A stretch of DNA of 54,255 nt from Gammaproteobacteria bacterium (GTDB taxonomy: Bacteria > Pseudomonadota > Gammaproteobacteria > Thiohalomonadales > Thiohalomonadaceae). The translations under genes were made by a program, and so were the position numbers. The notes under the pieces were generated by a model, which did no database searches, had not been told where the DNA came from, and saw only the letters and a program-made list of their open reading frames with translations. Shown in pieces: positions 7,884 through 10,772 of this stretch. The number at the start of each line of letters is the position of its first letter. The first letter of the stretch is position 1. Location of the stretch: positions 1 through 54,255 of the forward strand of contig QKED01000097.1 of the NCBI GenBank assembly GCA_003252455.1, read 5' to 3'.

Positions 7884-9398
7884 ATGTGCGGAATCATTGG
7901 TATCATTGGTCATAGCTGTGTCAATCAGGCTATCTACGACGGCCTGACCGTCCTGCAACATCGCGGTCAGGACGCCGCTGGCATGATGACCTGTGACGGC
8001 GGTCGGCTGCAGTTGCGCAAGGACAACGGCCTGGTGCGCGACGTGTTCCAGGAGCGGCACATGATGCGCCTGCGCGGCAATATGGGGATCGGGCATGTGC
8101 GTTACCCCACTGCCGGCTGCTCCTCCTCCGCCGAGGCCCAGCCCTTCTATGTCAACTCCCCCTGGGGTATCGCCCTGGCGCACAACGGTAACCTGACCAA
8201 CGCCGCGGCGCTCAAGGCCGATGTGTTCCGCGAAGACCGCCGCCACATCAATACCAACTCCGACTCGGAGACCCTGCTCAATGTCTTCGCCCACGAGTTG
8301 ACCACCAGCGACAAGCTCAACCTGGAGCCCACCGACGTCTTTCGTGCCGTGGGCAATGTGCATAAGCGTGCCAAGGGCGCCTATGCCGTGGTGGCGTTGA
8401 TCCCCAACTTCGGCATCGTCGCCTTCCGTGACCCCTTCGGCATCCGCCCTCTGGTGATCGGCCGACGCCAGAGCGAGCAGGGGGTGGAGTATATGGCCGC
8501 CTCCGAGAGTGTGGCCATCGACGCCCTCGGTTTCGAGTTACTGCGTGATGTGGCCCCGGGCGAGGCGGTGGTGTTCGACGTGCACGGTGGCTTTCACGCC
8601 CAGCAGTGTGCCGAGGCGCCGCAGCTCTCACCGTGTATCTTCGAGCACGTCTACTTCGCCCGTCCCGATTCGATCATCGACGGGATCTCTGTCTACAAGG
8701 CGCGCCTGCGCATGGGCGAGACACTGGCGAAGAAGATCTTGCGCGTCTGGCCTGACCACGACATCGATGTGGTGATCCCGATCCCCGATACCAGCCGCAC
8801 CTCGGCCCTGCAGCTCGCCAATCGCCTAGGCGTGCTCTACCGCGAAGGGTTCATCAAGAACCGCTATATCGGGCGGACCTTCATCATGCCGGGCCAGACC
8901 CAGCGCAAGAAGTCGGTACGCCAGAAGCTCAACCCCATCGAGCTGGAGTTCCGCGGCAAGAACGTGCTGCTGGTGGACGATAGCATCGTGCGCGGCACCA
9001 CCTCCGAGCAGATCATCCAGATGAGTCGTGACGCAGGTGCCAATAAGGTCTACTTCGCCTCCGCCGCGCCGCCGGTGCGCTACCCCAATGTCTACGGCAT
9101 CGATATGCCCGCCTCCTCCGAGCTGATCGGCTCTGGGCGTGACGAGGAGGCGATCGCCGCACTGATCGGTGCCGATCGACTCATCTACCAGGACCTCGAC
9201 GACCTGGTGGGGGCGGTGCTGCACAAGAGCGCCAGTGAGGTGGTCGAGTTCGAGGCCTCGGTGTTCAACGGAAAGTACGTCACGGGCGATGTGACCCGCG
9301 ACTACCTGCAGGCGCTGGAAGATGCGCGCAATGATGGCGCCAAGCAGATCACCGAGGCCGCCGGGGGGGTCAACCTCGACCTGCATAACGTCCGCTGA
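7884..9398 (+). CDS. purF: Amidophosphoribosyltransferase PurF
   Basis: PurF makes phosphoribosylamine from PRPP and glutamine, the first committed step of purine synthesis. The 504-residue protein starts MCGIIGI, so removal of Met exposes the Cys nucleophile of the N-terminal glutaminase domain; an ATG at 7842 would mask it and is not used. The PRPP-binding loop [13 protein letters not shown] is near residue 363. It is probably co-transcribed with cvpA, as in E. coli. Confidence 0.97.
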
Positions 9399-9403
9399 TG
9401 ATT

Positions 9404-9428
9404 GTGCGGTGATTGACAATCACCGCAC
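9404..9428 (+). terminator. Perfect 11-bp hairpin after purF
   Basis: GTGCGGTGATT at 9404-9414 pairs perfectly with AATCACCGCAC at 9418-9428 around a GAC loop, six bases after the purF stop. There is no T-run. The hairpin contains the -35 box of the metZ promoter. Confidence 0.55.
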
Positions 9429-9441
9429 ACGGTTCTAATCT
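9413..9441 (+). promoter_or_regulatory. Sigma-70 promoter of the metZ riboswitch transcript
   Basis: TTGACA (9413-9418) and TAATCT (9436-9441) are separated by exactly 17 bp. The predicted start point, about 9447-9449, is the first base of the riboswitch P1 stem. Confidence 0.8.
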
Positions 9442-9446
9442 CACTC

Positions 9447-9506
9447 ACGGCGCTGATTTGAGTCTCAGCTTGCGGGGCGCCTTATAAAAAACCGCTAAAG
9501 CGAGGG
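9447..9506 (+). ncRNA. SAM-II riboswitch aptamer
   Basis: The segment matches the SAM-II class in order and spacing: P1 GGCGC (9449-9453) with GCGCC (9477-9481), the conserved TGATTT loop (9454-9459), TTGC (9470-9473), an A-rich linker (TTATAAA), and GCTAAAG (9494-9500). A pseudoknot helix can be drawn base by base: TTGC 9470-9473 with GC(T)AA 9494-9498, GC 9468-9469 with GC 9500-9501, and CTC 9464-9466 with GAG 9502-9504. T9496 is left unpaired, as for the SAM-contacting U in the known structure. SAM-II RNAs sense S-adenosylmethionine and control methionine genes, mostly in alphaproteobacteria. Here it precedes metZ. Confidence 0.9.
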
Positions 9507-9511
9507 TAAAG

Positions 9512-9548
9512 ACCTGCTTTAGCACACGTATGCAAAGCGGGTTTTTTT
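9512..9548 (+). terminator. Riboswitch-controlled terminator (expression platform)
   Basis: ACCTGCTTTaGCA (9512-9524) pairs with TGCAAAGCGGGT (9531-9542) with one bulged A and one G-U pair, followed by a T-run to 9548. A competing antiterminator pairs GCTAAAGCgAGG (9494-9505) with CCTGCTTTAGC (9513-9523). SAM binding locks 9494-9504 in the pseudoknot, so the terminator would form and metZ would be off at high SAM. Confidence 0.88.
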
Positions 9549-9581: not shown

Positions 9582-10772
9582 ATGCAGCATGATCCCCTGG
9601 CGTGGGAGACGTTCGAACTGTCCACTGTGGCAGTGCGCGCCGGTGTCCATCGCACCAACGAAGGCGAGCACGCCGAGCCCATTTTTGCCACCTCCAGCTT
9701 TGTCTTCGGCTCCGCTGCGGAGGCGGCGGCCCGCTTCGGTGGCAGTGAGCCGGGCAATATCTACTCGCGCTTCACCAATCCGACGGTACGCACCTTCGAG
9801 GAGCGTCTCGCCGCACTGGAGGGGGCGGAGCGTTGTGTCGCCACCAGTTCGGGGATGGCCGCCATCCTTGCCACCTGTATGGGCCTGCTCAAGGCGGGCG
9901 ACCACATCGTCGCCTCGCGTTCGCTGTTCGGCACCACGCCGGTACTGTTCAATAACTTTCTCACCAAGTTCGGGGTGGAGGTGAGCTATGTGACCCTCTC
10001 CGAGCTGGAGAGCTGGCGCCTGGCCCTGCGCCCCAATACCCGCCTGTTGTTCCTGGAGACCCCCTCCAACCCGCTGACCGAAATGGTCGATATCACTGCG
10101 GTGGCCGAGTTGGCACATGCCCATGGCGCCCTGCTGGCGGTGGACAACTGCTTTTGTACCCCAATCCTGCAGCGCCCCCTGGACCTGGGGGCCGACCTGG
10201 TGGTGCATTCGGCGACCAAGTATCTGGATGGGCAGGGGCGTGCATTGGGCGGGGCCGTGGCGGGCTCGGCGGCGCTGCTGGAGTCGGTCTACAGCTTCCT
10301 GCGCAGTGCCGGACCGACCCTGAGTCCTTTCAACGCGTGGATCTTTCTCAAGGGGTTGGAGACGCTACCACTGCGCATGCGTGCCCACTGCGAGGGGGCT
10401 CAGGTGGTGGCCGAGTGGTTGGCGCTCCAGCCGGAGGTGGCACGGGTCTACTACCCGGGGCTCGCGTCGCACCCGCAACACGCCCTGGCCCAGCGCCAGC
10501 AGAGGGGCTTTGGTGGCATCGTTACCTTCGAGGTGAAGGGTGGCAGAGCGGTGGCCTGGCGGGTGATCGACGCCACCCGACTCTTCTCCATCACCGCGAA
10601 TCTGGGGGATGTGAAGAGCACCATCTCACATCCGGCCACTACCACCCATGGGCGCATGAGCCCGGAGGCGCGGACCCAGGCTGGGGTCACGGATGGATTG
10701 ATCCGCCTTTCCATCGGCCTAGAGGCCCCTGCCGACCTGATCTCTGATCTCGCGCTCGGGTTGAAGGGGTAG
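9582..10772 (+). CDS. metZ: O-succinylhomoserine sulfhydrylase MetZ
   Basis: MetZ makes homocysteine directly from O-succinylhomoserine and sulfide, using PLP. The 396-residue protein is a Cys/Met-metabolism fold type I enzyme with the PLP lysine Lys213 in SATKYLDGQG, the phosphate-contact SSGMAA at 89-94, and the SNPL substrate segment. Close relatives include cystathionine gamma-synthase; the MetZ call rests on overall sequence pattern and on its position after purF, as in pseudomonads. GAGGAG lies 8 bases before the ATG. The gene sits directly behind the SAM-II riboswitch. Use of free sulfide fits a sulfur-oxidising host. Confidence 0.9.
   Translation: MQHDPLAWETFELSTVAVRAGVHRTNEGEHAEPIFATSSFVFGSAAEAAARFGGSEPGNIYSRFTNPTVRTFEERLAALEGAERCVATSSGMAAILATCMGLLKAGDHIVASRSLFGTTPVLFNNFLTKFGVEVSYVTLSELESWRLALRPNTRLLFLETPSNPLTEMVDITAVAELAHAHGALLAVDNCFCTPILQRPLDLGADLVVHSATKYLDGQGRALGGAVAGSAALLESVYSFLRSAGPTLSPFNAWIFLKGLETLPLRMRAHCEGAQVVAEWLALQPEVARVYYPGLASHPQHALAQRQQRGFGGIVTFEVKGGRAVAWRVIDATRLFSITANLGDVKSTISHPATTTHGRMSPEARTQAGVTDGLIRLSIGLEAPADLISDLALGLKG

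Follow-up and report, generated by a model that had tools for sequence, protein, structure and literature searches.

A very probable SAM-II off-switch ahead of metZ in a Thiohalomonadaceae genome, and its relatives in beta- and gammaproteobacteria

Does the short leader between purF and metZ in a gammaproteobacterium of the family Thiohalomonadaceae hold a riboswitch, and if so, of which kind and how widely shared? The DNA analysed here, called the window, is the stretch of 54,255 nt read on the forward strand of contig QKED01000097.1 (positions 1-54,255; Gammaproteobacteria bacterium, assembly GCA_003252455.1). Scanned with Rfam at default settings, the window yields two tRNAs and nothing else. 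A sequence-only reading of the same DNA had proposed a SAM-II riboswitch with metZ as its target, to be checked by a covariance-model search.

The metZ leader and its aptamer

That search gives a significant match to RF00521 along its full length, with E of 2.9e-5 for the whole 4.58 Mb genome and 5.8e-6 on the local stretch. It is the sole RF00521 match in this genome and lies directly upstream of metZ, whilst 14 control genomes gave none. Its 32.4 bits are 3.6 short of the Rfam gathering score for this family (36 bits), which is a curation threshold and not a structural trait, and this shortfall is why the default scan misses the element. The proposed target holds as well, since metZ scores above the cut-offs of both NF006003 (681.9 bits against 522) and TIGR01325; its upstream neighbour, purF, ends at 9398. 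The features of the leader, all on the forward strand, are the following.

9413-9439 (+), promoter-like TTGACA - 15 nt - TCTAAT, just 5′ of P1, from the sequence
9440-9515 (+), full-length match to RF00521 (SAM_alpha, the SAM-II aptamer), 32.4 bits, model positions 1-79
9449-9454 (+), P1, 5′ strand, pairing with 9476-9481
9455-9461 (+), loop L1, GATTTGA, with T9457-9459 corresponding to U10-U12 of the SAM pocket
9464-9473 (+), pseudoknot P2, 5′ strand (P2a 9464-9466, P2b 9470-9473)
9476-9481 (+), P1, 3′ strand, pairing with 9449-9454
9494-9504 (+), pseudoknot P2, 3′ strand, with the core GCTAAA and T9496, the bulged equivalent of U44
9582-10772 (+), metZ, O-succinylhomoserine sulfhydrylase, the putative regulated gene (NF006003 681.9 bits; TIGR01325 590.8 bits)

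P1 was found where it had been proposed, with five base pairs (9449-9453 with 9477-9481), and a U-G pair between T9454 and G9476 makes it six in the fold. In P2b, 9470-9473 form four pairs with 9494-9495 and 9497-9498 around the bulged T9496; P2a adds three pairs (9464-9466 with 9502-9504), and the two are separated by 9467-9469 facing 9499-9501, three oppositions of non-standard type. The pseudoknot register read from the letters thus stands, as P2b agrees with the contacts given in the available part of the crystallographic paper (PMC3764141), where U21-A45 and U20-A46 are paired and U44 contacts the adenine of SAM; the non-standard oppositions had gone unmentioned. Another register, with T9496 and A9497 both unpaired (93.7% of cells paired), was rejected on the crystal pairing. 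The same part of that paper names as the fully conserved pocket U10-U12, U20, U21, G22, C23, G42, C43, U44, A45, A46 and A47, and all 13 of these positions are kept at the locus in the same order, as TTT (9457-9459), TTGC (9470-9473) and GCTAAA (9494-9499). Folded alone with the pseudoknot ignored, the aptamer (9447-9506) is no more stable than its shuffles (z +0.36).

The promoter-like pattern just ahead of P1 occurs once in the window and in 6 of 100 shuffles, and a promoter scan with spacings of 16-18 nt found none; counted by eye, TTGACA is present in 10 and CTAATCT in 7 of the 12 leaders of the family. Between purF and the riboswitch, and overlapping the -35-like TTGACA, there is also a perfect inverted repeat, TGTGCGGTGATT - GAC - AATCACCGCACA (9403-9429), which could be a purF terminator without a T-run, or a protein-binding site. 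Shorter palindromes were seen by eye at the equivalent place in some members of the family.

Putative terminator and antiterminator

Downstream of the aptamer, and partly within it, lie the elements of a possible expression platform, again all on the forward strand.

9494-9505 (+), antiterminator, 5′ strand, formed by the same bases as P2 (fold)
9513-9523 (+), antiterminator, 3′ strand (fold, complementarity)
9512-9542 (+), terminator hairpin, arms 9512-9524 and 9531-9542
9542-9548 (+), T-run of the terminator, seven T (sequence)

The antiterminator has eight pairs between 9494-9501 and 9516-9523 and three between 9503-9505 and 9513-9515, with 9502 bulged. Its heart is the exact complementarity of the core GCTAAAGC (9494-9501) to GCTTTAGC (9516-9523), which 157 of 20000 shuffled versions of the downstream stretch also contain; a laxer complement test allowing G-U anywhere gives p 0.06 for this locus alone. 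The terminator has 12 pairs, with A9521 bulged. Both structures were found where the sequence-only reading had placed them, and both fold better than shuffled sequence: 9490-9526 at -15.8 kcal/mol, a value that none of 200 shuffles reached, and 9505-9548 at -18.5 kcal/mol, equalled or bettered by 1 of 200. A generic terminator scan found none at the locus. The two are mutually exclusive, 9513-9523 being common to both. As 9494-9504 cannot serve P2 and the antiterminator together, binding of SAM is expected to release the terminator. The segment 9447-9526 folds into P1 plus the antiterminator (-28.9 kcal/mol), and when ligand is absent and the pseudoknot disallowed, the whole 102 nt retain the antiterminator at -34.9 kcal/mol, base pairs between the A-rich linker and the T-run adding stability. 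The equilibrium fold being antiterminated without ligand, the off state depends on the ligand and on folding during transcription.

We take SAM as the ligand and infer the transcription start, the order of folding, the termination and the effect on metZ from parts whose presence, coordinates, conservation and family match are observed. In this mechanism RNA polymerase would start just 5′ of P1. With little SAM, 9494-9505 would pair with 9513-9523, the terminator would be blocked and metZ transcribed; with much SAM, the ligand would keep 9494-9504 paired to 9464-9473 in the pseudoknot, the arm 9512-9524, now free, would pair with 9531-9542, and transcription would stop in the T-run before metZ. 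We consider it highly likely that the leader is a SAM-II riboswitch acting as such a transcriptional off-switch, the mode ascribed to most SAM-II (PMC6061858). A small RNA sensor upstream of metZ, that is, very probably shuts the gene off at high SAM.

Relatives, their platforms and their target genes

RF00521 matches are found in 12 of the 20 genomes sampled from the family, the own genome included, two of them above the cut-off; the order-level sample consists of the same 20 genomes. In all of the 12 that have it, the element stands upstream of metZ. In the class sample 121 of 369 genomes match (30 above the cut-off, 91 below), and in the phylum sample 108 of 397 (88 above), where, among the matches listed, every one above 42 bits is outside the class Gammaproteobacteria. 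Genomes behind named metZ loci match in 16 of 40 and 17 of 39 cases, and the named genomes with a match include Thiolinea disciformis, Ferriphaselus sp. R-1 and Chitiniphilus eburneus.

An alignment of 60 non-redundant aptamers found by RF00521 keeps the 13 pocket positions in 59 rows, a figure to be read with the selection by RF00521, which favours conserved pockets; GCTAAA was a further requirement for entry, yet no row lacking it was reported. In the crystal register 95.8% of its cells are paired; shuffles give 91.0%, and sliding gives no more than 57.3%. Both sides change in four of the six P1 pairs and in one of the two P2a pairs, the four P2b pairs being invariant.

A covariance model built from this alignment (R1) includes the row of the window itself and its E-values are rough; having been trained on RF00521 hits, it leaves RF00521 as the independent test of the element in the window. 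R1 matches the same 12 genomes of the family, the other eight having no match with either model, and 184 of the 369 genomes of the class. Of 80 named metZ loci it picks out 29, which score 55-81 bits, with 15.5 as the next best. At the weak end of its list are 26 matches in 25 genomes, 18 of them upstream of metN-like (7), metZ (4), metY (3), metK (3) or metX (1) genes and eight upstream of no reference gene. In the metZ leaders without a model match no second conserved motif was seen by eye among 26 of the 51 listed, and in many such leaders metZ comes directly after purF.

The notion that SAM-II has been known chiefly from the alphaproteobacteria, which had made the present example seem notable, does not survive these counts of 121 (RF00521) or 184 (R1) in 369 class genomes. 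Nor was it in line with the literature: in its available part, a paper of 2007 (PMC2258182) already lists SAM-II in alpha- and gammaproteobacteria and in Bacteroidetes, sporadically in the gammaproteobacteria and with regulatory terminators most often in alpha- and betaproteobacteria, and the part available of one of 2009 (PMC2704228) places SAM-II most commonly in the alpha, beta and gamma classes.

The platform recurs in the relatives. Of 101 elements, 96 are followed by a hairpin with a T-run, which at L097 and L180 is weaker than -5 kcal/mol. The exact complement of the core, CTTTAGC, is present in 17 of 82 non-redundant leaders against a shuffled mean of 0.79 (maximum 4), a 7-base complement with G-U in 44 against 14.64 (maximum 25), and a 6-base complement in 58 against 20.25 (maximum 31). 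This motif test replaced a lax complement test with G-U anywhere (a mean run of 7.3, with 6.0 in shuffles; p <=0.05 for 30 of 101), which was set aside as too permissive. When 16 leaders are selected for having the complement, 97.3% of cells in the terminator stem are paired and two of its seven pairs vary on both sides; for the antiterminator the paired share is 92.2%, falling to 55.5% at most when slid. None of the eight antiterminator pairs in these chosen leaders changes on both sides, with no excess over shuffles, so that the antiterminator rests on complementarity and not on covariation; its 5′ strand is held fixed by the aptamer.

Downstream genes were called by tblastn with six reference proteins, namely the metZ product of the window and, named by NCBIfam, MetX (L202), MetK (L101), two of the O-acetylhomoserine sulfhydrylase type (L095, L244) and MetN (L243, whose best score, 370.1 bits to TIGR02314, is under the cut-off of 499.7). 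Of 88 hits, 83 have metZ (58), metX (16), metK (5) or metY (4) downstream, and five have none. Calling genes by the longest open frame had, through wrong or truncated frames, assigned no met-gene cluster to 10 of the 88, and was given up. The beta/gamma form of the element is also found upstream of metX(W), metY, metK and metN-like genes. In one group (f102), all eight loci, fetched because RF00521 matched, have SAM-II and a terminator upstream of metX, at 28.2-37.2 bits with two above 36; plasmids similar to this group amount to 19 records at 60-80% identity, 12 of them Azospirillum; one of them (L202) continues into MetW, by a match under its cut-off that is clipped by the end of the locus.

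Several further observations concern individual relatives. Matches to the SAM-II models precede metN-like ABC importer genes at seven loci (L240, L241, L243, L246, L252, L253, L259), one of which, L252, has no visible GCTAAA core near its match. One locus (L214) has two SAM-II elements about 100 nt apart, and ten model matches were found in G254 and six in G359, some before no reference met gene. Variants with a very short linker stand before small genes in genomes of about 1 Mb (L247, L248, L250), with a hairpin and T-run after the element, as judged by eye. Also by eye, an extra hairpin between the 3′ strand of P1 and the A-rich stretch before GCTAAA was seen at L241, L243, L246, L253, L255, L256 and L257. 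The leader of another metZ, about 140 nt upstream of the gene (L254), has a SAM-II-like P1, P2 and core, with the GATTTGA pocket loop absent.

Against this background the other explanations of the metZ leader can be weighed. The aptamer might bind SAM and act on translation, hiding the ribosome-binding site as in the rare Sargasso Sea SAM-II, a mode known in this family (PMC10907184, PMC6061858); however, the last base of its P2 strand is 9504, metZ begins only at 9582, a terminator-like hairpin occupies the space between them, and terminators are general in the relatives, all of which makes such a mode here distinctly improbable. It is scarcely probable, too, that the aptamer is a decayed relic followed by a plain terminator: the score under the Rfam cut-off would fit this, and the loss of the L1 loop at L254 means that decay does occur, but P1 and P2 pair at our locus, the pocket as given in the available part of PMC3764141 is intact and the complement of the core sits in the terminator arm. 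A SAM-V, SAM/SAH or other pseudoknot riboswitch could be suspected, since SAM-V has its fold and binding mode in common with SAM-II (PMC6061858); yet RF00521 is the best of the Rfam matches at the locus at E up to 10, SAM-V and SAM/SAH being absent from them and SAM-II long loop (RF01726) remaining below its cut-off (19.6 bits against 44, E 0.13), and we hold this to be highly improbable. Chance resemblance, suggested by the sub-threshold score, is hardly credible given the E-value, the single match in the genome, its place upstream of metZ and its conservation in family and class before met genes across genera.

The SAM-II off-switch is therefore the reading we retain. The covariance-model match, the intact pocket and the relatives speak for the aptamer identity read from the letters, as they do for its terminator/antiterminator logic, and the metZ leader very probably carries a complete SAM-II off-switch of the ordinary sort, its novelty being that of one more individual. 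Its interest lies in offering a complete, testable reading of how a gene is shut off and, more widely, in pointing to an under-annotated beta/gamma subtype of SAM-II, probably including the metXZ RNA discussed below. We think it likely that this subtype, largely under the Rfam cut-off, is a general SAM sensor of metZ, metX(W), metY, metK and the metN-like importer in about half of the class genomes sampled, that metXZ is the same subtype, and that it is altered in some lineages, through an additional hairpin in the P1-core linker or, at L254, through loss of the L1 loop, in which case it may respond to another signal or to none. With the SAM-II model or its cut-off revised, many beta/gamma genomes would gain the annotation of a methionine switch that the default scan misses.

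Comparison with known systems

The locus resembles SAM-II as first described (RF00521; Corbino et al. 2005, PMC1273637) in its P1 and pseudoknot P2, its 13 pocket positions, the promoter-like site before P1, the terminator after P2 and the methionine gene downstream; in its available part that paper reports terminators for many SAM-II and, usually, a possible start site and promoter elements a few bases before P1. It differs from the typical RF00521 member in having P1 of the form GGCGCU/GGCGCC and the CAGCTTGC...GCTAAAGCG form, common to the beta/gamma relatives, and in its score, 32.4 bits where the best matches in the phylum sample reach 50-88. SAM-II long loop (RF01726) and SAM-V have the same pocket logic and pseudoknot, but the former falls far below its cut-off at the locus, the latter is not among the matches listed there, and SAM-V is described as translational (PMC6061858).

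The metZ SAM-II riboswitch of S. meliloti (PMC9373788, 2022) is alike in aptamer class, in the name of the target gene and in predicted SAM-dependent termination; it is alphaproteobacterial and, in the part of the paper available, has some experimental support, the terminated leader RNA being higher under high-SAM conditions. It is likened to the element in the window by description.

The relatives may also be compared with the betaproteobacterial metXZ RNA (Leyn et al. 2014, PMC4239095), which in the available part of that paper stands before metXW or metZ, has a pseudoknot formed by regions 1/4 and 2/6 with a terminator and poly-U after it, and is published as separate from SAM_alpha. The metX(W) elements found here fit this text description, and no title or abstract equating metXZ with SAM-II was seen in the part of the literature searched. 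As far as that description goes, the orphan metXZ RNA is probably SAM-II, and a revised SAM-II model would probably settle what it senses.
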